DNA of 64,000 bases from Ruminococcus sp. (lineage in GTDB: Bacteria > Bacillota > Clostridia > Oscillospirales > Acutalibacteraceae): the NCBI GenBank assembly GCA_017457955.1, contig JAFTGL010000012.1, forward strand, positions 62,001 through 126,000. Direction: 5' to 3'. Under the pieces are notes generated by a model. The model searched no databases, was not told the origin of the DNA, and saw only the letters and a list, made by a program, of their open reading frames with translations. Below, in pieces: positions 1,508-20,406 of the stretch. Made by a program: the position numbers and the translations under genes. Positions within the stretch are counted from its first letter, which is position 1. Each line of letters opens with the position of its first letter.

Positions 1508-1540
1508 GGTGTAAGTGTCCCTTCGAGGGACACTTACACC
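1508..1540. repeat. Element palindrome copy 1 (between RHH gene and relaxase)
   Basis: A 15-bp perfect stem with a 3-base centre (TCG). The core is TGTCCCT/AGGGACA with flanks GGTGTAAG/CTTACACC. It overlaps the stop codon of the RHH gene and ends 20 bases before the relaxase GTG, just upstream of its ribosome-binding site. It belongs to a family with copies at 6630, 11323, 11782, 18071 and 20390, and a decayed copy at 23804. Confidence 0.9.
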
Positions 1541-1920
1541 TGTGCTTCATATGCAGATATAATTCCTTTTGTGCTTTTGGCGTCTTCTACTGCACGACGT
1601 CGCAGGCTGTCATACTGATCCTTTGAGATATCAAGTTGAGACGCCAATAATCTTGATACTATATTCATTTCCACTGCCAGTTTAAACAGATTACTGTTGA
1701 TTCGCTTTGTGCTGTTGCCCACAACTCCTTCAACCTTTTGACCGTATATAGAACAAAGAAAATCCTGAGAAATCTCCGAGTTCTTGTAGCTATAATAAAA
1801 ATCTACAGCTGCTTCGATAACGGCATTTCTGCTCCCCGCACTTTCTGTCTTTTGTAAGGCTTCCAGTTTTCGGAGTTTATCCGGTGCTATATGCACCGTT
1901 ATTTTCTCCTTCTTTTCCAT
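1534..1920 (-). CDS. Ribbon-helix-helix relaxosome accessory protein (MobC-like)
   Basis: A 128-residue protein. The N-terminus (EKITVHIAPDKLRKLEALQ, then SRNAVIEAAVDFY) reads as a ribbon-helix-helix fold: a short DNA-contacting strand with alternating Thr/His/Ile followed by two helices. The rest is helical and could be an oligomerisation domain. It lies 3 bases after the lipoprotein gene and directly before the relaxase, the usual place for a small DNA-binding protein that loads the relaxase at oriT and represses its own operon. The last codons and the stop lie inside the first palindrome. The RHH reading is fairly clear; the relaxosome role is inferred from position. Confidence 0.65.
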   Translation of the reverse strand: MEKKEKITVHIAPDKLRKLEALQKTESAGSRNAVIEAAVDFYYSYKNSEISQDFLCSIYGQKVEGVVGNSTKRINSNLFKLAVEMNIVSRLLASQLDISKDQYDSLRRRAVEDAKSTKGIISAYEAQV

Positions 1921-1923
1921 CCA

Positions 1924-2499
1924 TTACCCCCCTATCATGTCCCGGTAGTTGTCAACTGAGTTGATCAGCCACCCTCGATCAGGATCTTTCACAAGCTTAA
2001 AAACATAAAACGTACTAATAGTGCTTGATGTTTCATTTATGACAGTGTTTTGGAAACATAAGCAGGCAACTTCCACTTGTTCTACTTCATCCGGGTTTTC
2101 GCTGAAATACAGTTTATTTACAGCGACAGCTTGAGAATAGTTTTCGTCCTTTGAATAGTAGCCCATAATATTCTCAACATTACTGCTATATTCTTTAGTA
2201 ATAAGATCCTTAATATCTTCAATATTATTTAGCGGAGAATCGGTAAAGGTTAGGAAACTCCCGCAAAAGGAATTCACAACATCCCGGATCTGATCCATAT
2301 TGCCCGTTGCTACGGTAGCAGAATCCGGTGTAGATTCTACAACAAACACCTTTACGGTTTCATCGGTATTATTCCCTTCTTCGGTAGTATCAGCTGTCAA
2401 TAAACTGCTTGAGCCGAAGCTTCCCAACCCGTTGCTGCAGCCGCTGAAAGTAACGGCGAGCAGTATAGCTATTATTACTAATACAAAATGATTCTTCAT
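1924..2499 (-). CDS. Conjugation-associated lipoprotein
   Basis: A 191-residue lipoprotein with a short signal sequence and a lipobox FSGC, so Cys21 would be lipidated after cleavage by signal peptidase II. After a Ser/Gly/Thr-rich linker the mature domain (about residues 65-191) has mixed alpha/beta character, with a conserved-looking end (FKLVKDPDRGWLINSVDNYR) that resembles NTF2-like or TcpC-like extracellular domains of Gram-positive conjugation systems. It sits between the CHAP hydrolase and the RHH protein, 10 bases after the hydrolase gene. The lipoprotein call is firm. The specific T4SS role is inferred from context. Confidence 0.65.
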   Translation of the reverse strand: MKNHFVLVIIAILLAVTFSGCSNGLGSFGSSSLLTADTTEEGNNTDETVKVFVVESTPDSATVATGNMDQIRDVVNSFCGSFLTFTDSPLNNIEDIKDLITKEYSSNVENIMGYYSKDENYSQAVAVNKLYFSENPDEVEQVEVACLCFQNTVINETSSTISTFYVFKLVKDPDRGWLINSVDNYRDMIGG

Positions 2500-2509
2500 A
2501 ATTACTCTC

Positions 2510-3808
2510 CTATAAATCTGTAAAGTTATAATCCTTCACAATGTTATACACAGTTGATCTTCGATTATAATAGTTATATCGTGAATCAGACCATCCTTTT
2601 TGTGAGTTGTATATTTGGTCAAGGCTCCAACTGCCATCAACGCCCCTTAAGCACCCTACATCAAATGAATACAGTCCCCACTGATTCAGTATATCTGAGC
2701 AGTATGCTACTGCACGAGGATCTGTAACACCGTGTTCGTTACACTTTTTAATGTAACTGTCAGCATACTCGAGAGACATTTCATCCTGCGCGCTTTTTCC
2801 ATAAGGAGACAGCAGAATCGCTTTAATACAAGCAGCTTCTGTATCATTGGGAATATAAGAACCCCAGTTATCGCCATTTTGAATTGATGACAGAATTCTC
2901 TGACCGCTGTAGCCATAAGAATAACAGATACTACTGACCGCAGAAGTGTTAAGATGATAAGCCTTTTGTAATAGTTCAAGGGCAGAGTTACTGTGCCACT
3001 GAAACACCCCCGCTGAAACAGCTCCCACATCGTTTGGCACTACCGTGCCATACTCCGTTGTGATTTTGTCATACTCGATTCCTACCTCAAATCTACAAAT
3101 TACATTTCTGATAAGGGAATTGAGCCCCGACGCCGCAACACCTTCATCTACACCAACAGCACCATATAAGGCTATAGTATAGTCGGTTATGGAACGAGTG
3201 TACTTATTGACTCTTGAAGTCATAGCCCATGTGCCGCCGTTTTCGTAGGTGCCGCTCTCATTTCCCGCTATAATAGTGATTTGATTGTTTTCAGTATCAA
3301 CATCAACAACAACTCCTATATGATCCGTGTGTCCGGTTCGATGATAGTCGTCCCTTCCCCTATAGTCAAAAATCACAACGTTGCCCCGACGCGGTTGATA
3401 GGTTTCGGGGTCTCTCAAACAATCCAAAGCGATCAAATTGTCTGTCCATACACCTGTATTAGGCGAATATCCTATTTCAGATAGATCAATTCCGGCTTTA
3501 TCAGCACAATAGCCTACAAAGTAACAGCACCAATCCGCGCCCGGATCGTTGAAATGTCCGTTATATCTTTCTCCTTGACATGAAAGCCCCGCCTCTTGAG
3601 GGGTGTGATCTTGCCAAAAGGCATATTCTGCTTCGGCTTGATCAGCTAATCCCGATCCCGTTCCCTGCTGATTATAGGTCATAATGCAGATGACAAGAGT
3701 CGGTATAATGAGGACAAGAATGACAGGAATAACCAATAGCACAATTAAAAAATGCCGAAAGCGTTTATCTTTCAGCTTGGTTAAAAACCATTTTTTGGCA
3801 GCGGTCAT
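2510..3808 (-). CDS. T4SS peptidoglycan hydrolase with CHAP domain (VirB1-like role)
   Basis: A 432-residue protein with a basic N-terminus, one membrane segment (about residues 19-43) and an outward-facing CHAP amidase/endopeptidase domain. The probable catalytic residues are the Cys in ADWCCYF (94/95), His163 in TDHIGVV and Asn183 or Glu184. The C-terminal half carries a second domain around GAVSAGVFQWHSNSALELL, which looks like the muramidase-type domains of phage-like endolysins. The protein would open the wall for the mating channel. Its ATG overlaps the VirB4 stop codon by one base (TAATG), so translation is probably coupled. The CHAP part is well supported; the identity of the second domain is less certain. 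Confidence 0.8.
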   Translation of the reverse strand: MTAAKKWFLTKLKDKRFRHFLIVLLVIPVILVLIIPTLVICIMTYNQQGTGSGLADQAEAEYAFWQDHTPQEAGLSCQGERYNGHFNDPGADWCCYFVGYCADKAGIDLSEIGYSPNTGVWTDNLIALDCLRDPETYQPRRGNVVIFDYRGRDDYHRTGHTDHIGVVVDVDTENNQITIIAGNESGTYENGGTWAMTSRVNKYTRSITDYTIALYGAVGVDEGVAASGLNSLIRNVICRFEVGIEYDKITTEYGTVVPNDVGAVSAGVFQWHSNSALELLQKAYHLNTSAVSSICYSYGYSGQRILSSIQNGDNWGSYIPNDTEAACIKAILLSPYGKSAQDEMSLEYADSYIKKCNEHGVTDPRAVAYCSDILNQWGLYSFDVGCLRGVDGSWSLDQIYNSQKGWSDSRYNYYNRRSTVYNIVKDYNFTDL

Positions 3809-6351
3809 TAACGACCACCCGCCGTTCCAAACAATTCCGCTTTATGCTCAGGAGCGATTACGTGAAGATGATATCGTTCCTCACCACATGAATAAAGACA
3901 AAATCCTCTGTGCGGTGTTGAAATCAAGGAATACTCGCTGTCTGTAATATTCGTGATCCGCTTATACTTCTCAATATCCACTGTTCCGGGAAAGAACAAG
4001 AAGCGGTGTGTCGGGATAGAGAAAAGCGGTGTGGTCAGTTCCACGATCCCCGGCAACATTAAATCTTCTATGTTTTGTGAGGACGTCAGAATGTTACTGT
4101 CTCTTTTACGACCGCGCTTAACAAAAGAGCGAATGTAGGAGACTACGATCATGGATTTAATGATTTCATGTATTTCATCACAAATAACTACTGTATTTCC
4201 CTGTGTGAAATACTTATGCTGCATAAAAGAGAATATGTTGAGGTACATAGCGTTCTTCAAATTCTCGTTTGTATTCAGCATTTCGTTGATATCAAAATTG
4301 ATATGATCGGCATTAGGAATATTTGTATAGCCGTTGAAATAGAGAGAATCGTTTCCGACACAAATACTATTGATTGAAAGCGCCAAGTCTCGGAGGTTTT
4401 CTTTGCTGTAAAGCATTTCCCGAGGGTTTTTCAAAGCTTTATCAGCATATTCATTCAATTCCTCTTCGACTACTTTATAGAGGTCAGACAGAATAGGAAA
4501 GTCCTCTGCGGATAACTTGAGCAAATTTGAATCATTGGTGATATTAAATTTTTCATAAGTCCTTACAAGCATGATCTCAAGGATATCCAGTTGAAGGCTC
4601 GTCAGTTCCGGCTTGTACACACTGAAAAAATCCCGCAGGAAGGCGATATGCTGTGCGAGCTGTGTATTTTTCTGAATAGCCGAAGGTGTGAACGTATCAT
4701 AATCACTGGCGTCTTCTTCAATATCCTTTAATAGCTTTGGTTGTAGAACATTGATAATGTATCTTCCCGACATCATATCAACATTAGTGCCGCCGAGATT
4801 ACTGGTGACATCGTTGAATTCCGAATCCACGTCCAAAGAGTAGAGTGACTTTTTCTTCTGTCTGAAAATACAGATGAAGAGTTTTATGATCCATGACTTA
4901 CCTTCGCCGGAATTGCCGAAAACGGAAATATGACCGTTTGTTTTATCAAAATCGCGCCGATCGAAATCGGTAAGTATATATCCCCCGTTGACGTCCTTGC
5001 CGAGGATAAAACCTCGGGGATCTGTTTTACCCGAATAAGAGAACGGGAAAAGATTAGCGGCAGATATTGAAGGCATGAAGCGATCAAATATTTTCTTGAA
5101 AGCCTTCTTTCCCCACGGCATGACCGAAGTAAAGCCATCCCGCTGCTGAAAGTGAAGCTTATCACACACCAGTCGCAAACTGGTCAAAGTTTGTGCGATG
5201 GTATCATTGAGAGATTTGAGATCATCCAAGCTTTTCGCAGAAGTCTCAATAAAAACGGTAACCGCGAATAATGATTGGTTCGAGGATCGCTTATTGGTAA
5301 TGTACTTCTTTATATCGTCTATGTCCTCAACACCGTCTACTTGTTCTCTAAGTTTCTTTGCGCCGATGATTTTACTCTTACTGTTGATTTCAGAGTTATC
5401 TATAACCTTATTTGTTTCTGCCGAGTTGAGACGCTTTGCATAGATATGCAACGTGACGCCTTCCTTCTCACCAAATTCTTTAAGGATCGCCCTCTGATCA
5501 GTAAGTGTCTGATACTCCCTCAGTGCAATTACTGAACGGAATGTATTGCCGATCACATAGTAATTTGGTTGCTTGAAAACAGCAACAGACGGACAAACGA
5601 TATCAACGAAACCCTTATAGTGTTCTTCGTCTATCTCAGAAGAATGAACATATTCCTCACCATCATAATCAGCAAAGTGATTTGAAAAAGGATTCTGCTC
5701 AAGATAAATTGCAGCTAATCTCTTCAAATCCTCTTTTTTGACCAGAGTAACACCCAATTTATTCTCATTGCAAATTTGAATAGTTGAACTGAGAATATGC
5801 TTTTTATTGATAGGCGGTTCGTTTTCGGAGATACGCAGCAACAAATAAAACGCCCTGCTTGTCGCCGTATTTATGCGTATATTATCAAGATACTCTTCGT
5901 CCTTTATGTTTAAGTCCCTGATATAAGGATTGTTTTCTGTCTTAACCAAGGTATTAAGATATTGAAGATTATCTTCATAGTTCTGAGCGCCGTCTGTACA
6001 CACAAACTCAACATTCTCAGCTTGAATCATAATATTAGATATCGCTTCAACAAAACCATCCTGCTCAGACTGGGATAAGACAGTTAAGTTCTTAGGTGGA
6101 ATGTTTATATAATAAAGCTCTTGTCCTTCGGTTGTAAGAATATGATCATCTTCAATAGACTTGATACCAAGCAGATTCTGAACGCTGTCATTGTTCTTTT
6201 TAATCTGCTTATTTGTTCTCTTCTCTGTCGCCTTTGCGGACGTTTTCTTTACCGAAGATTTCTTGCCGCTTTTCTTGATAAGATACATAACAAGAAAGGT
6301 GGCAGCGGTTGAGATACACATCACAATCGCTACAATTAGAAATGTTATCAT
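3808..6351 (-). CDS. VirB4-type conjugation ATPase
   Basis: The main energising ATPase of the type IV secretion channel, about 847 residues. I chose the ATG at 6351 because GGAGG precedes it by a normal distance; the upstream ATG at 6363 falls inside that ribosome-binding site. An N-terminal hydrophobic segment (first 25 residues) suggests membrane association, which is unusual for classic VirB4 but seen in Gram-positive variants. Walker A is GNSGEGKS near residue 480 and Walker B is VVICDEIHEI in the last quarter. The terminal region (NILTSSQNIEDL and on) matches the VirB4/TraE C-terminus. It follows the VirB3-like gene by 2 bases. Confidence 0.92.
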   Translation of the reverse strand: MITFLIVAIVMCISTAATFLVMYLIKKSGKKSSVKKTSAKATEKRTNKQIKKNNDSVQNLLGIKSIEDDHILTTEGQELYYINIPPKNLTVLSQSEQDGFVEAISNIMIQAENVEFVCTDGAQNYEDNLQYLNTLVKTENNPYIRDLNIKDEEYLDNIRINTATSRAFYLLLRISENEPPINKKHILSSTIQICNENKLGVTLVKKEDLKRLAAIYLEQNPFSNHFADYDGEEYVHSSEIDEEHYKGFVDIVCPSVAVFKQPNYYVIGNTFRSVIALREYQTLTDQRAILKEFGEKEGVTLHIYAKRLNSAETNKVIDNSEINSKSKIIGAKKLREQVDGVEDIDDIKKYITNKRSSNQSLFAVTVFIETSAKSLDDLKSLNDTIAQTLTSLRLVCDKLHFQQRDGFTSVMPWGKKAFKKIFDRFMPSISAANLFPFSYSGKTDPRGFILGKDVNGGYILTDFDRRDFDKTNGHISVFGNSGEGKSWIIKLFICIFRQKKKSLYSLDVDSEFNDVTSNLGGTNVDMMSGRYIINVLQPKLLKDIEEDASDYDTFTPSAIQKNTQLAQHIAFLRDFFSVYKPELTSLQLDILEIMLVRTYEKFNITNDSNLLKLSAEDFPILSDLYKVVEEELNEYADKALKNPREMLYSKENLRDLALSINSICVGNDSLYFNGYTNIPNADHINFDINEMLNTNENLKNAMYLNIFSFMQHKYFTQGNTVVICDEIHEIIKSMIVVSYIRSFVKRGRKRDSNILTSSQNIEDLMLPGIVELTTPLFSIPTHRFLFFPGTVDIEKYKRITNITDSEYSLISTPHRGFCLYSCGEERYHLHVIAPEHKAELFGTAGGR

Positions 6352-6353
6352 CG

Positions 6354-6614
6354 TTACCTCCATTTAAAAATCAAAATATCTGTTATGAAAAATTTTATAT
6401 ATAAAATGATCAACCGCGAAAGCGAATATCCGTTGTACAATCGCGCGGTCAGTATTGCATAGGATATAAACACAAGCGCAAACCAGATGATTCTCAGAAA
6501 CAGAAAAGCAAGTACGGCTGCTATGAAGAGAATCAACATAACAGCCGCGTTTTTTCCATTCCAATGATTGAACAGAATTGTTTCAGAAGTAAGGTTTTTA
6601 GGATAATAATACAT
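6354..6614 (-). CDS. VirB3/PrgI-like small membrane protein of the T4SS
   Basis: An 86-residue protein with an N-terminal cytoplasmic stretch, two closely spaced transmembrane helices (about residues 22-60) and a short basic end. Size, topology and position immediately before VirB4 match the VirB3/PrgI/TcpE class, which anchors the ATPase to the channel. Its stop codon lies 2 bases before the VirB4 ATG and within that gene's ribosome-binding site, so the two genes are translationally linked. A TGTCCCT palindrome ends 15 bases before its own ATG. Confidence 0.72.
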   Translation of the reverse strand: MYYYPKNLTSETILFNHWNGKNAAVMLILFIAAVLAFLFLRIIWFALVFISYAILTARLYNGYSLSRLIILYIKFFITDILIFKWR

Positions 6615-6629
6615 TATATCTCCTTCCCG

Positions 6630-6656
6630 GTAACTGTCCCTTGAAGGGACAGTTAC
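6630..6656. repeat. Element palindrome copy 2 (between VirB6-like and VirB3-like genes)
   Basis: A 27-base palindrome: core TGTCCCT/AGGGACA with a TGA centre and flanks GTAAC/GTTAC that also pair. It lies between the stop of the VirB6-like gene and the ribosome-binding site of the VirB3-like gene. The flanks differ from copy 1 yet stay self-complementary. Confidence 0.9.
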
Positions 6657-6658
6657 TC

Positions 6659-7564
6659 TTAAAATGAACGTACAATATTTGTGATACCGGACACAGCGTA
6701 TATAGCTTGGCTTGCATTAGATCTCACTGAACTTTCCAAGCCAAACTGTTGTAAAATTCTTGGAGCTTCCGAAGAAGACAGTAGTATTCCCAAAGCGATG
6801 AATAAATTAGTGAGATTAAGACTGCCGGAATTTGAAAAAACAAGAATAAAAAGAGCAAGTAGAAAGTTCTGCACAAAGAATGTTATACATTGTCCCACAA
6901 CTTGTTTACACCAAGAATAAAAACCATCTGTATATCCTCTCGGAATAGAAAGCAGATGAATAGGACAGATGGTAAGAAGAATGATCAAAATTCCGCTCCT
7001 CTTAAGATTTCCAAGCAGGATTTTCACGACAAAAACAAACATAATAATGCAGAATATCGAACCCACAATGCTACCTGTAAATTCGTTAGTATATTGTTCT
7101 CTCAATGAATCCAAAATCCCTTCCGGGGTAGTATCTTCCAACAATCTCCATTCCATCAAGGACTGAAAGTTTTGACCCTCTACTGCAGATGAAACCGTGC
7201 TTCCTATCAACATGTGCGTTACTTCTATTGTAAAAGTATACAGAAGAATAGGAAGCTTAACGAATCCGAAGCTTGCAAACAAGCCGACCGCGATGTTTTT
7301 AAATGTCCCTTTCACATCAGCTCCGTTGCCTTCGTTGTAACTGGCTGCAAATTCTGCTAAAGCAAGTCCAACGCCTATTATGAACATAACACCGCCCCAC
7401 GAAGACAGGAAATAGATATACGATAAAACTGATTTTTCAGTAAACACATTTATAAAGCTATTAAACGTGTCATGTAAAATGAGTAATGTTATCCTTGCAG
7501 AATATGCGCCTATCCACCTCATAAGGTTCGGAAATATCGAGATTAACATAGTGAAAATAGTCAA
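6659..7564 (-). CDS. VirB6/TrbL-like polytopic channel protein
   Basis: A 301-residue integral membrane protein with about six hydrophobic segments, including FLSSWGGVMFIIGVGLALAE near residue 55, FCIIMFVFVVKILLG near 170 and FFVQNFLLALFILVF near 230. The soluble tail APRILQQFGLESSV precedes a final hydrophobic turn. The topology, and its position between the small pilin-like protein and the VirB3/VirB4 pair, fit the VirB6/TrbL inner-membrane channel of Gram-positive conjugation systems. No enzymatic motif is visible. The assignment is by topology and gene order, not by a specific motif. Confidence 0.72.
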   Translation of the reverse strand: MTIFTMLISIFPNLMRWIGAYSARITLLILHDTFNSFINVFTEKSVLSYIYFLSSWGGVMFIIGVGLALAEFAASYNEGNGADVKGTFKNIAVGLFASFGFVKLPILLYTFTIEVTHMLIGSTVSSAVEGQNFQSLMEWRLLEDTTPEGILDSLREQYTNEFTGSIVGSIFCIIMFVFVVKILLGNLKRSGILIILLTICPIHLLSIPRGYTDGFYSWCKQVVGQCITFFVQNFLLALFILVFSNSGSLNLTNLFIALGILLSSSEAPRILQQFGLESSVRSNASQAIYAVSGITNIVRSF

Positions 7565-7601
7565 ATAATCTCACCTCTTTCTTAACGAAACTCCGGCACA
7601 A

Positions 7602-7877
7602 TTACACACCGAACCATGAGAAGAAGGTTCCGGCAGATAATACACCCGCAATCACGGCGCCGATCAGGCAGCCGATACCGGGACCAAAATTGTAGTCATC
7701 ACCTCTGCCCCTTTTAGCAAAAGCCGTAACCACTTTAACCAGACCGACAACGAGCAGAATAACGGTAGCAACAAGGAATATTGCTCCCGCAACTGCCTTT
7801 ACCTGAGAGATCACTTCATTTGTAACCTCTTGAATACCGCCGCTTAAGTCAACATTTGCATTGATAATTGTTTTCAT
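7602..7877 (-). CDS. Small two-helix T4SS protein (VirB2/TrbC-like)
   Basis: A 91-residue protein with two transmembrane helices (about residues 30-55 and 65-88) joined by a short basic, Gly-rich loop (AKRGRGDDYNFGPG). Size, topology and location directly upstream of the VirB6-like gene match VirB2/TrbC-type pilin subunits and related small proteins of Firmicutes ICEs. No clear cleaved signal peptide is visible. A good AAGGAAAT ribosome-binding site precedes the ATG. Confidence 0.6.
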   Translation of the reverse strand: MKTIINANVDLSGGIQEVTNEVISQVKAVAGAIFLVATVILLVVGLVKVVTAFAKRGRGDDYNFGPGIGCLIGAVIAGVLSAGTFFSWFGV

Positions 7878-7924
7878 AATGATTTCCTTTCTAAAATAAA
7901 TTAAAGCATATAGAAATATGCGCC

Positions 7925-9590: not shown

Positions 9591-9709
9591 TGATTCACTC
9601 TCATTTCTTTATATAGTTTTGATATCGAATAGGCGGCGAGAACAATCCCCACCGCCTATAAAAGTTGTATTAATGAGCTATTATGCAGCTCAGAAAGCTG
9701 TTTATTATG

Positions 9710-11233: not shown

Positions 11234-11274
11234 TTTAATAATCATCCTTTCATATAGTATTTTCTTCTGAATAT

Positions 11275-11306
11275 AAAAAACGCCGTAGTACTTAAGCACT
11301 ACGGCG
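11275..11306 (-). terminator. Strong intrinsic terminator just upstream of the pilin gene
   Basis: A near-perfect hairpin (arms CGCCGTAGT/ACTACGGCG around CTTAAG) followed on the minus strand by six T residues. It ends only about 42 bases before the pilin start, so it stops or gates transcription arriving from the toxin and FN3 region before the pilus/T4SS operon. Confidence 0.85.
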
Positions 11307-11339
11307 CATGAAGAAGCGAATGTGTCCCTCTGAGGGACA
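11290..11339. repeat. 50-bp direct repeat copy A, containing element palindrome copy 3
   Basis: Fifty bases are identical to 11749-11798. The repeat includes the 3' arm of the terminator and the palindrome at 11323-11339 (TGTCCCT-CTG-AGGGACA). Together the two copies bracket the toxin/antitoxin unit. Confidence 0.93.
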
Positions 11340-11416: not shown

Positions 11417-11422
11417 GAAACT

Positions 11423-11690: not shown

Positions 11691-11748
11691 CACACGGCAA
11701 GCTTCGGGCATGCCGTGTGTTTCTATAAATAAGACAAGAAACCGAAGC

Positions 11749-11798
11749 ACTTAAGCACTACGGCGCATGAAGAAGCGAATGTGTCCCTCTGAGGGACA
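11749..11798. repeat. 50-bp direct repeat copy B, containing element palindrome copy 4
   Basis: Identical over 50 bases to copy A. Here it lies about 105 bases past the stop of the FN3-repeat gene, and its terminator hairpin is degraded (the far arm reads CCGAAGC in place of the full partner). Palindrome copy 4 is at 11782-11798. Confidence 0.93.
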
Positions 11799-11903
11799 AA
11801 TTAAAAGCAGAGATCTATTTACATAAATCTCTGCTTAGATATAATACGGTTTCTGTTTGATCGATCAATAATATCCTGCTTCGCGAATAATCTTCTTTTC
11901 CGT

Positions 11904-14312
11904 TTAATCGTCTTTAATCACAACAGTCTCCCAGTGACCTTTCGCTGGAACCTCAATGGTCGCAGTACCGATCTGTACCGGAAGAACTTTATTCCTATAA
12001 CTCCAACAAGTGTCCCAATTTGCTTTCAAGTGAGAATCAAGATTGTAGGTAATATCCGCGCCGCACTGGTTGCAAATCGTCCTACTCTGTTTTTCGTATA
12101 CAGGCTTTTCATAAGAATAGCCTGCTTCATCCTCTACAAATTCAGATTTGGTCGAAAAAGACTTATATGTATAAGCAGAAGTGGTCCCGCTTTCACTGAC
12201 GGCTTTGATACGGAATTGGTAATCGGTATTGCCTTTTGGCGTGAATTCGTAGTATGGGGTTGATACCGTTGCTTCAACGATCCATGATCCGTCTTTCATC
12301 ACTTCAACGGTATACTTGCTTGCACGATCGACAGGATCCCATGACACTTTTGCTTCTGCAGGGGTTTCGGATAAAACAGGAAGATCAATCGTACAGCAAA
12401 AGCTGTCGGTCACAACAGGGTCTGCAACCCATTTTTTGTTTACCTTATGACCCGCAAGGAATAGATTCTTGGAAGCTATAGCTTTTTCTTCGCTTTCTGT
12501 CATGCGAAAGAGCAATATATCGTATGAATAGCAAGAATAACCATCTTTATCTTCTGTTTTATTCCAATGAATCGTAACCTGGGAACCGTCGTCGGAGTAT
12601 TCGATTTCTGATTCGATATATCGTTCTTTGTCAAGCGGTTTAATCTCACTGTTTTCATAACCCGTTACATTTGCGATATATTCAAACTCATCGTGTACAC
12701 CAGAAGCGCCTGTTGTATCATCGAAGTAGCATTTCGTAATCTCCCATTTACCGACTGAATCATAGGTAACAGAACCATTGTCAACCATTTCTGCTTGTAC
12801 ATTGGAAGGAGTGTCCAACGGAGCTTCTGTAGGAGCTTCCGTCGGTAACTCGGTAGGCTCAATGTATGAATAGATATGTTCCCATCCGTTATTGTTAAAA
12901 TCAGTAACGAAATCGTCGTTTTTGTTTAACCCACGAACTGTATATGTATAGGTTGCGTTGTATCTGACCGCGCTGTCCAAAGCTGTTGTATCAGTAGTTT
13001 CAGCGAAACGTGTCCAACCGCCCTTACTGTTTTTAGAATAAACGCGGTACTTATAAACGCCGTCGATCGGAGTCCAGTTGATGTGAACGCCCTCGAGGTC
13101 ATCGGTAAAATCAGTGATCTCGGGATTATCATAAGGATACTGATATGTGTATCTCCAACCTGTGCTATTATATCCGCTGATAAATCTGTCATGAATGGAA
13201 TCGTAGCAACGAACAGTGTAGGTATATGTTTTTGTGTAACTGACATCTGTATCGGTATAGGATGTACCTAATACGGTAGCCATCCGTACCCAAGCTCCGT
13301 TTCTGTTTTTATAGTACACACGATAACGGTTTGCGCCGTCAACAGCATTCCATGATATTTCTACACCTTTCTCAGTGCTTTTAAATGCGCTGATCTTAGG
13401 TGTATCAACACTATAAGTGTGTTTCCACCCCGAACTGTTCCAGTCTGTAACAAATCTGCCGTATTCATTCACTCCCTGTACGGTATAAGTATAGGTTGCA
13501 TTGTATTTAACGTCGGTATCCACGGCAGTTGTATTGAAGGTTTCTGTGATTCGTGTCCAACCGCCCTTACTGTTTTTATAATAAACGCGATACTTATAAA
13601 CGCCTTCGATCGGAGTCCAGTTGATGTGAACGCCCTGATAGTCATCGGTAAAACTGCTGATAACAGGTTTCGCAAAAGGATACTTGTAGGTGTGCTTCCA
13701 ACCACTGCTGTTAAAATCGGTTACAAAATTGCCGTTTTTGCTCAAGCCACGAACAGTATAGGTATAGGTCGAATTATTATTGACAATCGTATCAAAAGCA
13801 AAGGTATCTGTTGTTTCAGCAAAACGTGTCCAACCACCTTTACTGTTCTTATAATAAACGCGGTATTTATAAACGCCTTGAATTGGCGACCACTTAACCC
13901 GAACACCATCCGAAACATCATCCATATTTGTGATTTCAGGTTTGCCGTAGGGATACTGATAAGTGTATTTCCAACCATTGGTGTTGTAAAGACTTGTAAA
14001 TCTTTTCTCTGCGGAATCGACGCAACGAACTGTGTAGGTATATGTTTTGGTGTAACTGACATCTGTATCGGTGTAGGATGTACCTAATACGGTAGCCATC
14101 CGTACCCAATCACCATACCTGTTTTTATAGTACACGCGATAACGTTCTGCACCTTCAACAGGGTTCCATGTGATTTTCACACCTTGTTCCGTGCTTGCAA
14201 AATCAACGATTGTAGGCGTGGCAAGCTGATTGTTGATTGCCGCCGCAGAAATTCCTTCAACAGAAAAGATGAATATAAAGATAAGGACGATTGAGAATAA
14301 TGTTTTTTTCAT
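11904..14312 (-). CDS. Secreted protein with tandem fibronectin-III-like repeats
   Basis: An 802-residue secreted protein with a signal peptide ending near ISAAA. Residues about 30-500 hold five FN3-like repeats of 90-95 residues; the recurring elements are YRVYYKNxxGxWxR and TYTYTVRG. A TEAPTEAP linker (about 505) leads to a mixed domain, another FN3-like module (about 650-740) and an end containing CNQCGAD, a later His and WDTCWSYRN, which could bind zinc. No LPXTG signal or membrane anchor is visible, so attachment, if any, is non-covalent. The repeats alternate between two subtypes, suggesting internal duplication. It sits between the two Cna-B genes and may act in cell contact during mating; that role is inferred. 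Confidence 0.75.
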   Translation of the reverse strand: MKKTLFSIVLIFIFIFSVEGISAAAINNQLATPTIVDFASTEQGVKITWNPVEGAERYRVYYKNRYGDWVRMATVLGTSYTDTDVSYTKTYTYTVRCVDSAEKRFTSLYNTNGWKYTYQYPYGKPEITNMDDVSDGVRVKWSPIQGVYKYRVYYKNSKGGWTRFAETTDTFAFDTIVNNNSTYTYTVRGLSKNGNFVTDFNSSGWKHTYKYPFAKPVISSFTDDYQGVHINWTPIEGVYKYRVYYKNSKGGWTRITETFNTTAVDTDVKYNATYTYTVQGVNEYGRFVTDWNSSGWKHTYSVDTPKISAFKSTEKGVEISWNAVDGANRYRVYYKNRNGAWVRMATVLGTSYTDTDVSYTKTYTYTVRCYDSIHDRFISGYNSTGWRYTYQYPYDNPEITDFTDDLEGVHINWTPIDGVYKYRVYSKNSKGGWTRFAETTDTTALDSAVRYNATYTYTVRGLNKNDDFVTDFNNNGWEHIYSYIEPTELPTEAPTEAPLDTPSNVQAEMVDNGSVTYDSVGKWEITKCYFDDTTGASGVHDEFEYIANVTGYENSEIKPLDKERYIESEIEYSDDGSQVTIHWNKTEDKDGYSCYSYDILLFRMTESEEKAIASKNLFLAGHKVNKKWVADPVVTDSFCCTIDLPVLSETPAEAKVSWDPVDRASKYTVEVMKDGSWIVEATVSTPYYEFTPKGNTDYQFRIKAVSESGTTSAYTYKSFSTKSEFVEDEAGYSYEKPVYEKQSRTICNQCGADITYNLDSHLKANWDTCWSYRNKVLPVQIGTATIEVPAKGHWETVVIKDD

Positions 14313-14417
14313 GATGTTACTTCCTCTTTCTTAGCATGTAGCTGTTATCTTTCGACTATTCTATCAGCTTCAATCAAACAAGCTTGATTTAGGCTTGATT
14401 TAATTTAGCTTGTTTAC

Positions 14418-14479
14418 ATTATATCGGAACATCATATCCATAAACGGGACTTTGAACACTTGGGTGTACACTTGGGTGT
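14418..14479 (-). promoter_or_regulatory. Promoter region of the FN3-repeat gene with tandem 12-mers
   Basis: A TATAAT -10 element lies at 14418-14423 with no recognisable -35. Instead a perfect tandem pair of the 12-mer ACACTTGGGTGT occupies 14456-14479, directly upstream of where the -35 would be. This fits an activator-dependent promoter. Confidence 0.55.
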
Positions 14480-14518
14480 AAACTTTTAATTATTTTAAAT
14501 CCATTTATATGAAATGTC

Positions 14519-14542
14519 AACGTAAACAAATTTGTTTACGTT
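14519..14542. repeat. 24-bp perfect palindrome with GTAAACAA half-sites
   Basis: A perfect dyad centred at 14530/14531 built from GTAAACAA half-sites, lying between the large Cna-B gene and the FN3 gene promoter. A single half-site (GTAAACAAG) recurs immediately after the -10 element at 14408-14417, so the same regulator could bind both. Confidence 0.7.
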
Positions 14543-14609
14543 CCTGTCAGCAGAGAGGGTACACAGCTTAAACCGCGCCCTCCCTGCAAACGATCAAGAA
14601 AAAGCAGAC

Positions 14610-17600
14610 TTATGATTGCTTTTTCTTCTTTCTCTTTTTCGAGATGGCAACTGCAAGTATGATCACCGCAGCCGCGACAGCAGTTCCTATCGCAATCGCA
14701 TAGAACACCGTATTGCCGACGCCACCGGTATTATACATCACGGCTCTGTGATTACTGACAGACACAAGCTGTTCGGAGATAACGTCATCTTCCTCGAGCA
14801 GTGAGAAAGGAATCGGCTCGGTATAAGGCATATAACCTTCGGTGGTTTCCAGTTCCTCAAAGACATAATCTCCGACAGGCAGCCCTTCAATTTGTATGAG
14901 CCCGTCAACGTCGGTTACATATTCAACCTCGCTCCCATCAGGATCAAAAACATATATACCGTCAATCAAACTGCACGTGATCAGCATTTTATCCGCTTCA
15001 CGGTACAGCTTAAACTTCACGTTTGCAAGCGGCTGTCCGTTTTCATCGACCTTGCTCATAGTAACTTTGCCCGTCTTCAATACGTTGATCACAGAGAAAT
15101 ACGGAATTGAATCACCGGGTTCGGTGTTCTCAGATATTGTACTGGTATAGTTGTTTACGTCTGTTTCGAGAACAGAATAGTGGATCAACTCACCATGATC
15201 GTAATACTTGTCCAGATTATCAAAGGAAAACTTCCAACTCTTAGAAGCGTCCGTTTTGACTGACCGATACGATTTGCCGTTCATCAGCAAGGTGATTGTG
15301 ATCTCGCCCGGGCGAAGACCAAATGTATCGTCATAGTCGTCCCATATCTTCTTACCCTCAATCTCGATCTTCTCGGGGGTATAGGTATTGGTAAACGTGA
15401 CCTCATAATTATGAGTAGTCACATTCCACTCGTCTGTTTCGGTAGAAACTTCAACCAGATCGCCCCCTGTCGACTTATAGCCGGGCACGTTGCTTTCTTT
15501 GACAGAATAGGTGTAATAGTAGATGTCATCATCCGCAAGAAGATCACCGTGACCCTCGGGCAAGTCAAGAAATTCAAAGCGCCAGTCCTGCGTTTCATCG
15601 GTAACATAGCTGTCGATGACTTCACCATTCCTTAAAAGATCAATCATGAGGCTTTTGGGACGCTTACCGTCTCGATCGTCATCATCTTCCCATTTCTTGA
15701 CGCCGGAGATATTCACGATACCCGCTCTCGGTTCGCGGATAACAGGAGCGTTATAGGTATTGACCTCGTCAAGATCGCCTTCGGACGTGATTTGCTGAAT
15801 GTAAGCGTCGGCACTAAGCTTGTACCCGATTGGCGCTTTTGATTCCTTGATATAAACAGTTCCGAGCGGCAAAACCGGATTTGGGGAGCCGAGGCTGTCA
15901 TAATAGAATTCATCACCGGAAACCAAATAATCGTCAGACAACCGACAAAAACCGTTATCATCAGTTTTTACAACCCAAGTTTTATCCGGTTGAGCAGAGA
16001 GACATTCCTCTTCTGTCGAGAAATAATCGCGGTAGTATTTTACGGTAAATTCTGCGCCTTCAATCCGCTTTCCGACAGCTCCCGTCTGCTCGTCTTCCTT
16101 TGTCAAGAGAATACGTACAGGGTCGTTCTGCGGAGGGTCGTACATTTCAACCATGTTGTCCGCTCCTTCGTCGGCGCTGACAGTCAGCTCACCGATTTGA
16201 TCCGACAGTGCGTAGCCGGAAGGAGCAACAATCTCACGAACATAGAACTTCTTTCCGGATTCACCCGGATCAGGCAGATTGGAAATATGCGCAACACCGT
16301 TTACATCTGTTTCAATATCTGTCATAAACGGATTGGTGTCGTTCTCGGCGTCTTCTTTGCTCTCATAGAGATTGAATTTTGCGCCTTGCAGCGTGTAGCA
16401 GCTGTTACCGTCCGTCATTTCGGGATCAGAGGATTTCTTGATAATCTTAGCGCTGAGGGTACCCTCTGGTTCATCGTATACGCGCAGGATGTAAGGATTA
16501 TCACTGTTGTGATTCTTAGTCAGCTTAACGGTATAGACGGTTTCATCAAGCTTATAACCGCTATTTGCTAAAGATTCATTATTATATTCTTTAGCATAAT
16601 AGGTTCCGATACCGAGATTACGGATAGTCTCGTTGGAGCCATCATAGGAGAAACCTGTTCCGTCTTCGCTCAGCTCAATATAACCGACATAGTCCGGATT
16701 AGAGCTGCCCGTCACAAAACTCTTTGTTGACTTGTACAGACAGTAGGTGATCCCCTTGAACGTGTAGTGACTGTTTCCGTCCGTCAGCTCAGGCTTAGTC
16801 GAGAACTTTTCGATCTTTAAAGTTGGCTTTACGGGCGGGTCGGAAACGCGCAGGACAGCAGGGTTGCTGAGAGTATTATCAGACGTCACCTTAACAGTAT
16901 ATACAGTATCATTATACTGATAACCGCTTTTCCGTAATGCGGTATTATCATATTCTTTAACATAATACGTACCCGGATCCAGTTCACGTAAGGTTGCTCG
17001 AGATCCTTTCTCCGTCGTAGCCACACCGTTTTTGTCAAGATCAACAGCACCAAGATAGTGACTTCCGTTCGTATCAAAGTCGGTTTTTGACGTTGAGAAC
17101 ACATATGTGATTCCCTCAAACGAATAGTTCTTGTTTCCGTCTGTGGTTAACGGAGTATCAGAAACCTTTCTGATTTCAACAACGGGATGATACTCATAGC
17201 TCATAACAGACTGAGCGGAGCCGCCGCCCGGATAACAATAGTAAACTTTGATATTTCCGGGAACACTGGGGAAATAATCACTTTTAGGGTTGAGTACATC
17301 AAGCACTTCATTCCATGCCTCACCGTTATCATCATTATTCCAATTCTGCTGTAAGCTGTCAATCAAAGTATGTGCTAAAGCGTATTTGGTAACTGTTGCA
17401 GACGGTGATTTTTTCTTGATATCTGACATAGCAGCTTCAAGATTGTCCGTATATGTACTACAGCTGCTATTATACTTTGAAGCATTATTGGCAAGCCTTG
17501 CGCTTGGATTCACAAAATACCAATAAAATGTTTTTGCACGCATGGTATCGTTGGCGAGATAATACTTCGTCAATGAGTAAGTGCCTGTCGTAGGAGTATC

Positions 17601-17858
17601 ACGTGATGATCGGGCACAAGTCGCAAGATTACCGTTACAGTACAGCCAGTGTGTTCCCCAAGCGCTTCCGCTGCTGCCATAGAAAACATAATCACCTGCA
17701 ACAAAATTCACAGTACCTTTTTTGGCATAATCATAATTGACACCGTGATCATTATTTTGTGTATACTCTGTAGCTGCTGACATCGAAATGATTGAACATG
17801 ACAGCATAATAACGACAGCGAGCAACAAGCTCGTTATTTTAGAAAGATACTTTTTCAT
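14610..17858 (-). CDS. Large Cna-B repeat surface protein, probable pilus tip or adhesin
   Basis: A 1,082-residue protein. I start it at the ATG at 17858 (MKKYLSKITSLL), after AAAGGAAAAG, which gives a clean signal peptide; the frame opens further upstream at 17906. Residues about 30-230 form an N-terminal domain rich in Cys, Trp and Tyr (LYCNGNLATC, VYYCYPGG) that resembles thioester or adhesin heads. Seven Cna-B-like modules follow, most with an E-box (YYVKEY, YYAKEY, FYVREIVAPSGY, VYIKESKAPIGY, YSVKES, VFEELETTEGY). The C-terminus has VMYNTGGVGN, a hydrophobic helix and the tail KKRKKKK, so the sorting motif is not LPXTG. Placed next to the pilin/sortase operon, it is a likely minor or tip pilin. 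Confidence 0.8.
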   Translation of the reverse strand: MKKYLSKITSLLLAVVIMLSCSIISMSAATEYTQNNDHGVNYDYAKKGTVNFVAGDYVFYGSSGSAWGTHWLYCNGNLATCARSSRDTPTTGTYSLTKYYLANDTMRAKTFYWYFVNPSARLANNASKYNSSCSTYTDNLEAAMSDIKKKSPSATVTKYALAHTLIDSLQQNWNNDDNGEAWNEVLDVLNPKSDYFPSVPGNIKVYYCYPGGGSAQSVMSYEYHPVVEIRKVSDTPLTTDGNKNYSFEGITYVFSTSKTDFDTNGSHYLGAVDLDKNGVATTEKGSRATLRELDPGTYYVKEYDNTALRKSGYQYNDTVYTVKVTSDNTLSNPAVLRVSDPPVKPTLKIEKFSTKPELTDGNSHYTFKGITYCLYKSTKSFVTGSSNPDYVGYIELSEDGTGFSYDGSNETIRNLGIGTYYAKEYNNESLANSGYKLDETVYTVKLTKNHNSDNPYILRVYDEPEGTLSAKIIKKSSDPEMTDGNSCYTLQGAKFNLYESKEDAENDTNPFMTDIETDVNGVAHISNLPDPGESGKKFYVREIVAPSGYALSDQIGELTVSADEGADNMVEMYDPPQNDPVRILLTKEDEQTGAVGKRIEGAEFTVKYYRDYFSTEEECLSAQPDKTWVVKTDDNGFCRLSDDYLVSGDEFYYDSLGSPNPVLPLGTVYIKESKAPIGYKLSADAYIQQITSEGDLDEVNTYNAPVIREPRAGIVNISGVKKWEDDDDRDGKRPKSLMIDLLRNGEVIDSYVTDETQDWRFEFLDLPEGHGDLLADDDIYYYTYSVKESNVPGYKSTGGDLVEVSTETDEWNVTTHNYEVTFTNTYTPEKIEIEGKKIWDDYDDTFGLRPGEITITLLMNGKSYRSVKTDASKSWKFSFDNLDKYYDHGELIHYSVLETDVNNYTSTISENTEPGDSIPYFSVINVLKTGKVTMSKVDENGQPLANVKFKLYREADKMLITCSLIDGIYVFDPDGSEVEYVTDVDGLIQIEGLPVGDYVFEELETTEGYMPYTEPIPFSLLEEDDVISEQLVSVSNHRAVMYNTGGVGNTVFYAIAIGTAVAAAVIILAVAISKKRKKKKQS

Positions 17859-17937
17859 AATGTCTTTTCCTTTCGTAAAATTCAGAACAATAAACGAAGA
17901 AATCAACGGGAGGATCTCTGTTTCGAGATAAATACAT
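17839..17937 (-). CDS. 32-residue leader frame overlapping the large Cna-B gene start
   Basis: A short frame starting MYLSRNRDPPVDF with a good AAAGGAGTGA ribosome-binding site. It runs across the ribosome-binding site and first 20 bases of the large Cna-B gene. It may be a leader frame whose translation exposes or hides the downstream start. No homologue is recognised and it could be chance. Confidence 0.3.
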   Translation of the reverse strand: MYLSRNRDPPVDFFVYCSEFYERKRHYEKVSF

Positions 17938-17957
17938 TTAATTCACTCCTTTACAAA

Positions 17958-18056
17958 TCAAACGACAAATGTATAGATGAAAAGAAAAATGGCACTACGC
18001 TTGAGCTCCACCGATGAAGCCGTTTTAGGGCTTAAAATAATTCTCTGATCGCTCAT
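17958..18056 (-). CDS. 32-residue small ORF coupled to spoVG
   Basis: This frame (MSDQRIILSPKTASSVELKR, then a hydrophobic end rich in Phe/Ile/Val) begins inside the spoVG stop codon (ATGA overlap) and uses AAGGAGAACG as its ribosome-binding site. The same overlap style links spoVG to parB, which argues that it is translated. The short hydrophobic C-terminus could insert in the membrane. Function unknown; palindrome copy 5 lies 14 bases upstream of its ATG. Confidence 0.4.
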   Translation of the reverse strand: MSDQRIILSPKTASSVELKRSAIFLFIYTFVV

Positions 18057-18340
18057 AAGCGTTCTCCTTCAAACTGTCCCTCGGAGGGACAGTTTTTATT
18101 TTGAATAATTGCATGTATGACAGCAGCCTTGATCAGATACCACGTATCAGAGTTCTTGACGACGATATTCTTCTTACCTCTCTTTCTTGTCATTTCACTG
18201 ACAGGAAACACAAGGCGTATATCATAGCTGTTTCGATACACTTTGATATCATTGATAATCAAGGCGCGATCTATGGTGATACTGGCTATCCCAATAAAGT
18301 TTTTCCTCTCTATCGGGCGAAATTCCGCTGTAACTTTCAT
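18053..18340 (-). CDS. spoVG: SpoVG-family nucleic-acid-binding regulator
   Basis: A 95-residue SpoVG-family protein. The N-terminus (KVTAEFRPIERKNFIGIASI), the phrase IINDIKVYRN and the stretch VFPVSEMTRKRGKKNIV match the conserved strands and basic patch of SpoVG, including the position of the substrate loop. Cellular SpoVG binds DNA and RNA and affects sporulation and septation; element-borne copies have no settled role. The ATG overlaps the parB stop (ATGA). Unusually, the last residues (NCPSEGQ) are encoded by palindrome copy 5, so the repeat has been absorbed into the coding sequence or placed there by selection. Confidence 0.85.
   Translation of the reverse strand: MKVTAEFRPIERKNFIGIASITIDRALIINDIKVYRNSYDIRLVFPVSEMTRKRGKKNIVVKNSDTWYLIKAAVIHAIIQNKNCPSEGQFEGERL
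18071..18095. repeat. Element palindrome copy 5 (inside the 3' end of spoVG)
   Basis: Twenty-five bases: core TGTCCCT/AGGGACA with a CGG centre and paired flanks AAAC/GTTT. It lies within the spoVG coding sequence and 14 bases before the next start codon (18056). Confidence 0.9.
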
Positions 18341-19575
18341 TCTATTTCACCTTCCTCTTCGTTGTAGAAAACACCGAGGATCTCACTTTCAGAGATACAG
18401 TTGCGCAGATAGTAACGACAGATATAATCGATCTCTGTTTGCCACAACGACCAAAAATACTTCTTGCCGTTAAGAAAAAGGTTAATATGATTGAGATTAG
18501 AGTAGAATTTAAACTGACAGGAATCGCCTGTTTCTACTGAATAGGTATGGTCGCTGTATTGATAGTTTTTAATCAGAAATTTTCCAACCTCATAGGATGA
18601 AGGGAATTCCTTAACGATGTAGGCAAATAAAGGCTGAAACAAAGAGTAGAGCGCTTCACCGATAAATGCGAGCTGATAGTCTGTCATTTTGAAGTTCTGC
18701 TCCAACGGAAAGCCTGCTTCATTAACTGTTATTTCAGTTTTTTTCTCGGTTTTTCGGGGCTTCTTCACCGTTGATCGGTTTTTTTCCTTCTCTCCGTCTT
18801 CTGTGGCGTTTGATACAGAAGCTCTATCACCGTCGTTAAGAATGTCATATATCCCAACACCGGGAGTATCGTTGTGGCGAAGCTTCTGGACTATCTCGGT
18901 AGTCAGCTTATAGTCGGGATGATTAACAAGATATATCCAAATAACGTTTTGCTCTGTTTGGTCAAGAAAAGAAAGCTCATAACCGGTGTTGACGGTGAGC
19001 TTCCCTTCATCAACGAGATTTAAAAGGCTCTTATGAAGCTTATTCAGCGCTTTGTATCTGTGAACAGACTTACGATTTGTTCCGTTAGCTTCGGCGATCC
19101 TCGAAGCCGTCTGATTATACCCCAAAGCACGATACAGTTCGTCAAGCCGTGAAAAGGCTTGCGCCAATTCCGAAGGTTTATAGTCGTTATTACGGCTTAA
19201 ATTGGATAACAGAAGAGAGATCTCCTGCTTTGTGTTGCTTGATTCTTTCTTGATATATCCCTTAACCGTTTTTAAACCGTTCTCAATACAAGCACGTTTC
19301 CGATGACGCCCTGCTATCAAAAGATATCTTCCTTCACGATCCGGTGAAGGTGTTACAATGATAGGATCAAGCTGTCCGACGATCTTCATGCTTTCAGCAA
19401 TCTCAATCACCTTTTCTTCGTTGATATGAAACGCCTGATCCTCAATTTCATCAATCAGATCCACAGGAATTTCAATGATCTGATTTTCATCGGAACCTCC
19501 AAGAAGCTGATTAAAGGATTGCTCCGGGGTCAGAAGGGTTTGGGGCTTGATGTCAAATTTACTCTTACTCTTCAC
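18337..19575 (-). CDS. ParB-family partition protein
   Basis: About 412 residues from a GTG at 19575. I prefer this start because GGAGG lies 9 bases upstream and it overlaps the parA end by only 11 bases; the ATG at 19644 would add residues translated from inside parA. The N-terminal ParB/Srx domain spans about residues 35-130 (VDLIDEIEDQAFHINEEKV, then the nucleotide-binding box LIAGRHRKRACIEN). An HTH follows (ALGYNQTASRIAEANGTNRKSVHRY). The C-terminal third after a Lys/Glu-rich linker is not recognised. With ParA it should segregate or stabilise the excised circular element. Confidence 0.9.
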   Translation of the reverse strand: MKSKSKFDIKPQTLLTPEQSFNQLLGGSDENQIIEIPVDLIDEIEDQAFHINEEKVIEIAESMKIVGQLDPIIVTPSPDREGRYLLIAGRHRKRACIENGLKTVKGYIKKESSNTKQEISLLLSNLSRNNDYKPSELAQAFSRLDELYRALGYNQTASRIAEANGTNRKSVHRYKALNKLHKSLLNLVDEGKLTVNTGYELSFLDQTEQNVIWIYLVNHPDYKLTTEIVQKLRHNDTPGVGIYDILNDGDRASVSNATEDGEKEKNRSTVKKPRKTEKKTEITVNEAGFPLEQNFKMTDYQLAFIGEALYSLFQPLFAYIVKEFPSSYEVGKFLIKNYQYSDHTYSVETGDSCQFKFYSNLNHINLFLNGKKYFWSLWQTEIDYICRYYLRNCISESEILGVFYNEEEGEIE

Positions 19576-20362
19576 TTGCCAACACCTCCAATACAGCACG
19601 GGCAACCTCGAGATACTGCTGTCCGACTTTGCTGTTTGAATCACTCACGCTGCTGCAATGCAGCCCTACGGCGTTTTTTGCCTCTGTCCTGTTGCTGATA
19701 ACCGTATCAAAAACAAGACTTCCGTAACTTTCTTTCAGACTTTGTAATATCTGCATAGAATGAATCGTATTTGTAACAAACATAGTCACAAGAAATCCTA
19801 ATAGATATTTTGAAACATCCATATCTCCTTTGATTCTGGTAAGTGTTTGGATCATCTGGGGAACGCCTTCATATGCCAAAAGGTCAGCCTGAACAGGAAT
19901 GAGGAGCTTGTCACAGCATTTGAGGACATTCGTTACAAGGAGATCAAGCGCCGTCTGACAGTCAAAGATAACGAAATCGTAGGCGGAGAAAACATTGTTG
20001 TCAAAGATTCTTGTAACGACGTTAGAGCTATCAGAATCAGTAGCGAGAATTCCAAGCATACCCGCTAAAAGAGGGCTTGACGGAATATAGTCAAACCCCT
20101 CTTCGTGGTGTTGTATGCAATTGCACAGATTGAACGGAATCTTTGCGATGTTGGTATAAATGAGGTCAGTTGATGTAGGCTCTCCGTGAGGCTCATACCC
20201 GAGCCACTTTGAAAGGTGACATTGCGGGTCAAAGTCCACCAACAGTACGCGGCTGCCGAGCGCGCTTAGAGCTGCGCCGAGATTAATTACGGTAGTCGTT
20301 TTGCCGCAGCCGCCCTTCTGATTAGAAACTGCAATTTTAATTGTTTTGCTTTTGTCTGTCAT
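19565..20362 (-). CDS. ParA-family partition ATPase
   Basis: A 265-residue ParA/Soj-type ATPase with the deviant Walker A KGGCGKTT at residues 16-23 (signature lysine Lys16), the switch region VLLVDFDPQCHLSKWLG and Walker B FVIFDCQTA. It lacks an N-terminal HTH, so it resembles chromosomal-type (Ib/Soj) rather than P1-type ParA. The gene starts 27 bases after palindrome copy 6 and is followed by parB, spoVG and a small frame in a chain of overlapping genes. It probably helps maintain the element when it is excised. Confidence 0.92.
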   Translation of the reverse strand: MTDKSKTIKIAVSNQKGGCGKTTTVINLGAALSALGSRVLLVDFDPQCHLSKWLGYEPHGEPTSTDLIYTNIAKIPFNLCNCIQHHEEGFDYIPSSPLLAGMLGILATDSDSSNVVTRIFDNNVFSAYDFVIFDCQTALDLLVTNVLKCCDKLLIPVQADLLAYEGVPQMIQTLTRIKGDMDVSKYLLGFLVTMFVTNTIHSMQILQSLKESYGSLVFDTVISNRTEAKNAVGLHCSSVSDSNSKVGQQYLEVARAVLEVLASEE

Positions 20363-20389
20363 AATTTATCTTTCCTTTCTTTGCAAAAC

Positions 20390-20406
20390 TGTCCCTCAGA
20401 GGGACA
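20390..20406. repeat. Element palindrome copy 6 (parA leader)
   Basis: Seventeen bases, TGTCCCT-CAG-AGGGACA, in the 5' leader of parA, between the terminator of the preceding gene and the parA ribosome-binding site. Confidence 0.9.

Follow-up and report, generated by a model that had tools for sequence, protein, structure and literature searches.

Along 64,000 nucleotides of Ruminococcus sp. DNA (GenBank assembly GCA_017457955.1, contig JAFTGL010000012.1, positions 62,001 to 126,000; this whole stretch is called the window), a short palindrome recurs among the genes of a putative integrative and conjugative element, and the question is what reads it. A sequence-only reading of the window had proposed that a shared RNA-binding protein or a small RNA acts on the repeats after transcription, with an operator for a dimeric DNA-binding protein or a REP-like (repetitive extragenic palindromic) repeat as fallbacks. 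Our comparison of related elements favours the first fallback and a particular protein: the dyads are probably, at odds that we put at roughly three in four, DNA sites bound by the ParB that the element itself encodes.

All six copies counted by the earlier reading match TGTCCCTNNNAGGGACA exactly, that is TGTCCCT-YNR-AGGGACA, a 17-bp palindrome, and a seventh copy carries two mismatches (Table 1). Even with two mismatches allowed, the chance expectation is a mean of 0.08 copies, and seven were reached in 0 of 100 shuffles. The assembly to which the window belongs (1.83 Mb, 74% complete) holds the exact dyad at seven places, all on the window's contig (C10) within a span of about 31.5 kb; the one beyond the window's six is C10:50853-50869. 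Across 398 genomes of the family the dyad matched in three (7 copies in the own genome, 16 in G318 and 1 in G069), and across 147 relatives of G318 in six (16 in G318, 25 in G473, 11 in G426, 2 in G400, 2 in G441 and 1 in G458). A scan of named genomes with a flank-restricted pattern returned 39 stretches, of which 35 come from Ruminococcus sp. or uncultured Clostridia metagenome-assembled genomes, and the same pattern had no match in the viral contigs scanned. With seven exact sites over its contig and 25 in one relative, the dyad is dispersed over the element as the sites of a KorB-type regulator are. The counts given below leave out one of the 21 copies in G542 and one of the 7 in G549, and cover the other 139 of 141 known exact copies from 15 genomes; G546 duplicates part of G543 at 100%, so the raw counts contain duplicates, and deduplicated sets of 120 sites and 74 independent clusters were used beside them. 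Single copies in G069, G547, G551, G552 and G553 were excluded as probable chance matches.

The proposed ligand is encoded among these copies, next to a ParA-type ATPase. The window's ParB contains ParB_N (2.8e-10) and a match to HTH_ParB, the helix-turn-helix (HTH) family, under the cut-off of that model. Its relatives in the PDB are ParB, Spo0J, Noc and KorB, of which KorB matches weakly (8.7e-5, residues 33-143 only) and the other three score higher. Of the ten genomes whose fetched dyad regions contain VirB4, nine have adjacent parA and parB genes; the exception, G400, is represented by a fragment. Here and below, the names VirB3, VirB4, VirB6, TraG, relaxase, sortase, pilin, TOPRIM, ribbon-helix-helix (RHH), HicB and toxin-antitoxin are those that we presume from the look of the sequences, and genes were called by custom scripts, not by a standard caller.

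When exact and one-mismatch copies within 200 bp before a gene are tallied, a dyad precedes parA in eight of nine genomes (two parA starts, called 1 bp from the dyad, are probably wrong). The corresponding fractions are 6/8 for the open reading frame (ORF) before the ArdC-like gene, 8/11 for ssb, 6/9 for the family F002 and 3/7 for relaxase, compared with 94/408 for all genes of these spans; VirB4, TraG, the Rep-like gene, F009 and parB are preceded in no case. Inside parB itself a dyad is found in four of nine genomes, and in these four proteins it is translated in the variable linker behind the HTH, where it encodes CPSEGH or CPSKGH.

The evidence that points to ParB comes from parallel elements with another palindrome. 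A profile of seven ParBs from dyad elements was searched in the 147 relatives. Profile A1 contains the ParBs of G318, G426 and G473, and A2 also those of G399, G440 and G462; the scores of all these members are high by construction. The search ranked the profile members G473, G318 and G426 first, followed by G399, G440, G462 and G468 at 6.3e-80 to 4.4e-56, and no further match was better than 7.7e-34. In the scan of the 147 relatives, G399, G440, G462 and G468 have no exact TGTCCCT dyad. They carry TGGACAANTTGTCCA, mostly as GTGGACAANTTGTCCAC, in 8, 14, 6 and 10 copies genome-wide, with the same 8-N-8 geometry and length of 17 bp; conversely, TGGACAANTTGTCCA has no copies in G000, G318, G473 and G426. 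These TGGACAA dyads sit upstream of parA and inside parB, places that match those of the TGTCCCT dyads (in G468, whose parB frame is broken in two, they fall in the second part). Among the 38 TGGACAA sites, 13 are intragenic, and 24 are no more than 60 bp from a gene end. The motif occurs in 12 of the 147 relatives, with 6-14 copies in those four and 1-3 in the other eight. A third pair came from a family-wide ParB search over 398 genomes, which at E values up to 1e-55 returned five (the own genome, G318, G019, G121 and G192): in G019, which belongs to another genus, parB holds GRGGACAANTTGTCCYC twice, and the genome has six copies, with one match of the reversed control.

The N-terminal parts of ParB are 47-98% identical inside the TGTCCCT group and 38-48% identical to the TGGACAA group. 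Despite these ranges, the HTH segment is kept within a group and changes from one group to another: [TS]NRK[ST]VH in 9/9 TGTCCCT proteins, [QL]SKKKIY in 4/4 TGGACAA proteins and VTTKEVQ in G019. Residue R168 of the window's protein aligns with R173 in the ParB of Caulobacter, where four residues including this one set specificity (PMC7383237) and adding ten to the chain index reproduces the published numbering of G170, K171, S172 and N178. The aligned residue is Arg in the TGTCCCT group, Lys in 4/4 TGGACAA proteins and Thr in G019. Judged from these alignments, the sequence of the site varies together with the predicted HTH type of ParB across the three groups.

We propose that the palindrome would be read as two TGTCCCTY half-sites round one free base, with one ParB monomer on each half-site and a dimer overall. 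The independent variation of Y and R in the two half-sites and the mismatch spectrum, which falls off sharply to background (both given below), speak for such a site. ParB would nucleate at the dyads, which offer many nucleation points along the element, and would then spread on the neighbouring DNA, serving the ParA-driven maintenance of the excised element. It would also put the genes that adjoin the dyads under common control, namely parAB, ssb and the ArdC-like operon; this control would reach the relaxase in some elements, as well as exchangeable toxin-antitoxin-like modules. By analogy with KorB or the ParB of plasmid NAH7, ParB may repress or activate these genes. Both signs of regulation are allowed, because promoter-like pairs (loose consensus, mononucleotide shuffle) are enriched behind as well as before the dyads: 34 vs 11.8 at 40-80 bp past the dyad start, and 22 vs 11.8 at 20-60 bp before it. 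For comparison, the operators of a KorB-type regulator are expected 4-10 bp or 45 to more than 1000 bp upstream of promoters.

Several observations weigh against ParB as the ligand. The contrast consists of three ParB groups only, and other proteins diverge together with ParB. In G543 there is no dyad within 200 bp of the called parA start, and five of nine parB genes have no internal dyad. G400 has VirB4 and two dyads and no close ParB (best 1e-28; 10 kb examined, genome 89% complete), and G441 (2 copies) and G458 (1 copy) also have no close ParB. Eight of the 12 genomes with the TGGACAA motif, those with 1-3 copies, have no ParB better than 1.1e-32, and both motifs occur once in G458. The copies in all these genomes may be element fragments. 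In each of the four TGGACAA elements a SpoVG-like ORF (36-41% identity) comes after parB. The two ParBs of G121 and that of G192 (loci L175-L177) have no clear repeated 8-N-8 palindrome in the surrounding 3.5-3.9 kb, a misfit unless their sites lie farther away. Flank positions 4-5 covary, although a simple operator would work without this, and in close pairs the arms are not clearly slower-changing than the flanks (4/84 and 2/238 in the arms, 9/204 and 12/578 in flanks 9-25).

The ParBs of L175-L177 are of intermediate distance, and their HTH ends in KQIYRY. Among more distant ParB-like ORFs, 13 of 20 fetched loci (L141, L144, L146-L148, L150-L156 and L159) show one 7-N-7 or 8-N-8 palindrome at a fixed codon position, profile position 150-156, which in the ten printed encodes [SCV]-x-[QP]-[VL]-x-x-[KN]. 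The arms differ between genomes, so that the DNA palindrome is kept and the protein changes. One such sequence, GTCGCAANTTGCGAC, is present as a single copy per genome in each of four carriers. This palindrome could be a self-site or a target.

The dyads might instead be the operator of a different DNA-binding protein of the element: the integrase, the Rep-like protein, F009 (a small protein, RHH by eye, that matched no Pfam family) or a protein that we did not recognise. In favour of this, an integrase family is present in 10 genomes, and F009 and the Rep-like protein in 9 each. However, the similarity of the integrases crosses the border between the two motifs: they are 54-77% identical across it (G399 to G542b 61-77%; G440, G462 and G468 to G473a 54-61%). 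Apart from ParB and the integrases, the fetched parts of the TGGACAA elements differ widely from the first group: VirB4 and TraG, present there in G399 and G440, share 21-23% identity with their counterparts, and blastp gave no match for the relaxase, F009 and Rep-like families. Moreover, the sites are kept around parAB. We therefore consider another operator protein unlikely.

The anatomy of the sites bears on the earlier reading, for which an RNA hairpin would sit in leaders and at operon junctions. All 139 exact sites have YNR at their centre. In the dyad spans (452,010 bp) there are 139, 28, 6, 7 and 79 copies with 0, 1, 2, 3 and 4 mismatches, and background alone would give 8.3 with three and 75.7 with four; because the last two counts are near expectation, copies are either close matches or background. 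The core is thus invariant in the six exact window copies, as the earlier reading had it, but not in general, given the 28 one-mismatch and 6 two-mismatch copies; the innermost arm position takes 14 of the 28 one-mismatch changes. Outside the arms, complementarity exceeds that of shuffles at flank position 4 (69 vs 43.4 in 120 sites; 36 vs 24.2 in 74 clusters) and position 5 (51 vs 37.5; 33 vs 24.0), and more weakly at positions 1 and 3. The excess at positions 4-5 is confined to sites symmetric at 1-3 (36 vs 21.1 and 30 vs 17.9 of 49). At position 1, G or C predominates on either side, and complementarity is loose (65 vs 54.2 of 120). A second structural constraint or the repair of imperfect palindromes could cause the covariation at positions 4-5.

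This covariation speaks for a hairpin, as does the ribosome-binding site that follows four of the six window copies; the distances given earlier from the dyads to the start codons of the relaxase, the VirB3-like gene, the small frame and parA agree with the sequence. Placement before a ribosome-binding site is, however, not general. The 139 sites comprise 82 between tandem genes, 27 convergent, 16 divergent, 10 inside ORFs and 4 at edges, with a gene stop within 20 bp of the site in 59/136 and a gene start within 40 bp in 50/114, and the convergent and intragenic ones are not where a leader element is expected. The central Y and R, at positions 8 and 10, are independent (C/G 96, T/G 21, C/A 17 and T/A 5; Fisher p 0.41 in the 74 clusters), and flank position 1 reads G/G or C/C in 38/120. 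On the transcribed strand the 28 one-mismatch copies comprise 7 G-U, 10 A-C, 6 other and 5 undecided pairs, showing no preference for wobble. On flank complementarity the earlier reading was right in part, as the covariation of positions 4-5 also holds for independent sites. Window positions 1-24500 have no Rfam match at the gathering score. SpoVG and AbrB, proposed earlier as ligands, are not found in most dyad regions: in the fetched regions of the nine ParA-ParB elements, tblastn detects SpoVG in three (G000, G545 and G548) and AbrB in two (G000 and G545). Post-transcriptional control through such a hairpin is, on these grounds, quite improbable.

Dyads also lie at the borders of gene modules. 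In G318 and G473 they enclose small modules, among them an ssb unit and toxin-antitoxin-like pairs, and clustering of 97 inter-dyad segments revealed modules shared with insertions and deletions. In G473 a 986-bp unit is flanked by two dyads at a place where G542 carries a single one, and in L043 (7022-7656 and 8859-9493) the ssb unit is duplicated with its dyads at 98.8% identity over a 754-bp alignment. Ends of homology cluster at dyads: 27 of 285 lie within 12 bp, with 3.0 expected at random places, and dyad-bearing junctions have 30 ends in 3,910 bp at the dyads vs 70 in 34,625 bp elsewhere. Such figures would suit a recombination site at which a recombinase shuffles modules as cassettes, any other role being secondary. 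Against random places the control looked strong, but a better one left a modest excess: 37/95 junctions with a dyad hold an end vs 32/155 dyad-free gene junctions (60-600 bp), an odds ratio of 2.45, and recombination was rejected as the whole explanation. A conserved dyad by itself stretches alignments to its edge; the integrases differ between elements, module order is largely kept (by eye), and a tyrosine recombinase would be expected to use a centre longer than 3 bases. We regard this explanation as very improbable.

A REP-like selfish palindrome or bidirectional terminator with no trans-acting ligand would suit the placement at gene ends and the in-frame copies in the parB linkers, but is hardly credible for a repeat that is confined to a few genomes (three of the 398) and one contig of its own genome, with none of the spread over the host chromosome typical of REP sequences and bacterial interspersed mosaic elements, that has a sharp mismatch spectrum and that is replaced by a different motif at matching places in the parallel elements.

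Binding by ParB would leave room for a role of the borders. Tentatively, in a reading that we think less likely than not, the partition protein might be a genome-wide organiser: modules bounded by ParB sites, incoming toxin-antitoxin-like or ssb cassettes included, might be exchanged at these sites and so be placed under ParB control, while the parallel ParB/site codes would keep the cassette pools apart. The dyads resemble a dispersed network of parS sites or KorB operators, and are themselves also set at module borders.

Sites of ParB-family proteins that couple maintenance with the control of transfer genes are already known from the proteobacterial plasmids RK2 and NAH7. On the IncP-1 plasmid RK2, a conjugative element, the ParB-family protein KorB controls replication and transfer genes from its operators (OB), with clamp sliding and silencing (PMC11790492); OB is 16 bp, whereas the dyads here are 17 bp, also border modules and sit inside parB. 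We do not class the window's protein as a KorB member, because its homology to KorB is weak and its partner and CTP use are putative; no search for a KorA-like partner was made. NAH7 has repeated parS_NAH sites near its partition and transfer genes, and there ParB alters transfer-gene transcription, activation being shown by experiment (PMC12421886); unlike here, placement at module borders is not reported in the available part of that paper. In the Noc/NBS (Noc-binding site) and chromosomal ParB/parS systems a palindrome is likewise read by an HTH dimer, with specificity set by a few residues in or near the recognition helix (PMC7383237), but parS (PMC8494293) and NBS (PMC8429893) are 16 bp and chromosomal, whereas the dyads have a free central base and lie on a mobile element. 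The start-associated sequences (SAS, and the extended form ESAS) of cluster K mycobacteriophages are also repeats of mobile genomes that lie near translation starts, and some come with inverted repeats; SAS is asymmetric and 13 bp long (PMC3203893), in contrast to the symmetric dyads, which are also convergent or intragenic and are paired with a matching ParB type. A search of titles and the beginnings of abstracts, including the core letters, gave no description of such a system among the papers listed.

The similar layout in conjugative elements of the Ruminococcus group comes with three protein/site pairs that have the geometry, not the sequence, in common. If ParB is the ligand, inheritance, gene control and the borders of swappable modules would be tied to one signal, a handle on how such elements control their mosaic cargo. 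The change in ParB specificity becomes directly testable between groups, for example with TGTCCCT and GTGGACAA dyads, and the three pairs may provide orthogonal sites for DNA labelling.

Table 1. Dyads of the window and the ParA-ParB pair proposed to act with them.
Feature	Position	Strand	Description
Dyad 1	1516..1532	.	TGTCCCTTCGAGGGACA on +; palindrome extended by flanks; directly after stop of ORF 1534-1920; 28 bp before relaxase start
Dyad 2	6635..6651	.	TGTCCCTTGAAGGGACA on +; palindrome extended by flanks; stop of VirB6-like ORF on one side, ribosome-binding site of VirB3-like gene on the other
Dyad 3	11323..11339	.	TGTCCCTCTGAGGGACA on +; flanked by two terminator-like hairpins; upstream of pilin-like gene
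Dyad 4	11782..11798	.	TGTCCCTCTGAGGGACA on +; preceded by terminator-like hairpin
Dyad 5	18075..18091	.	TGTCCCTCGGAGGGACA on +; palindrome extended by flanks; within 3' end of spoVG-like ORF, downstream of parB
ParB, proposed ligand	18337..19575	-	ParB_N; HTH_ParB sub-threshold; GTG start (19575) placed by comparison with relatives
ParA-type ATPase, partner of ParB	19565..20362	-	dyad within 200 bp before the gene in 8/9 genomes
Dyad 6	20390..20406	.	TGTCCCTCAGAGGGACA on +; parA 27 bp downstream
Degenerate dyad	23804..23820	.	2 mismatches; stop of HicB-like ORF 4 bp before

In the window, sites 1, 2 and 5 have complementary flanks, as the earlier reading had noted, and sites 3, 4 and 6 do not; by eye, terminator-like hairpins precede the latter three. 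Dyads 3 and 4 share neighbouring sequence with a terminator-like hairpin (segments 11280-11339 and 11740-11798), which makes up a short duplicated stretch in front of the pilin-like gene. Finally, two very similar HicB-like ORFs, 37 kb apart, flank the element's genes (window 23825-24295 and L005 6912-7382, both on the minus strand), and each has a degenerate dyad 4 bp past its stop.

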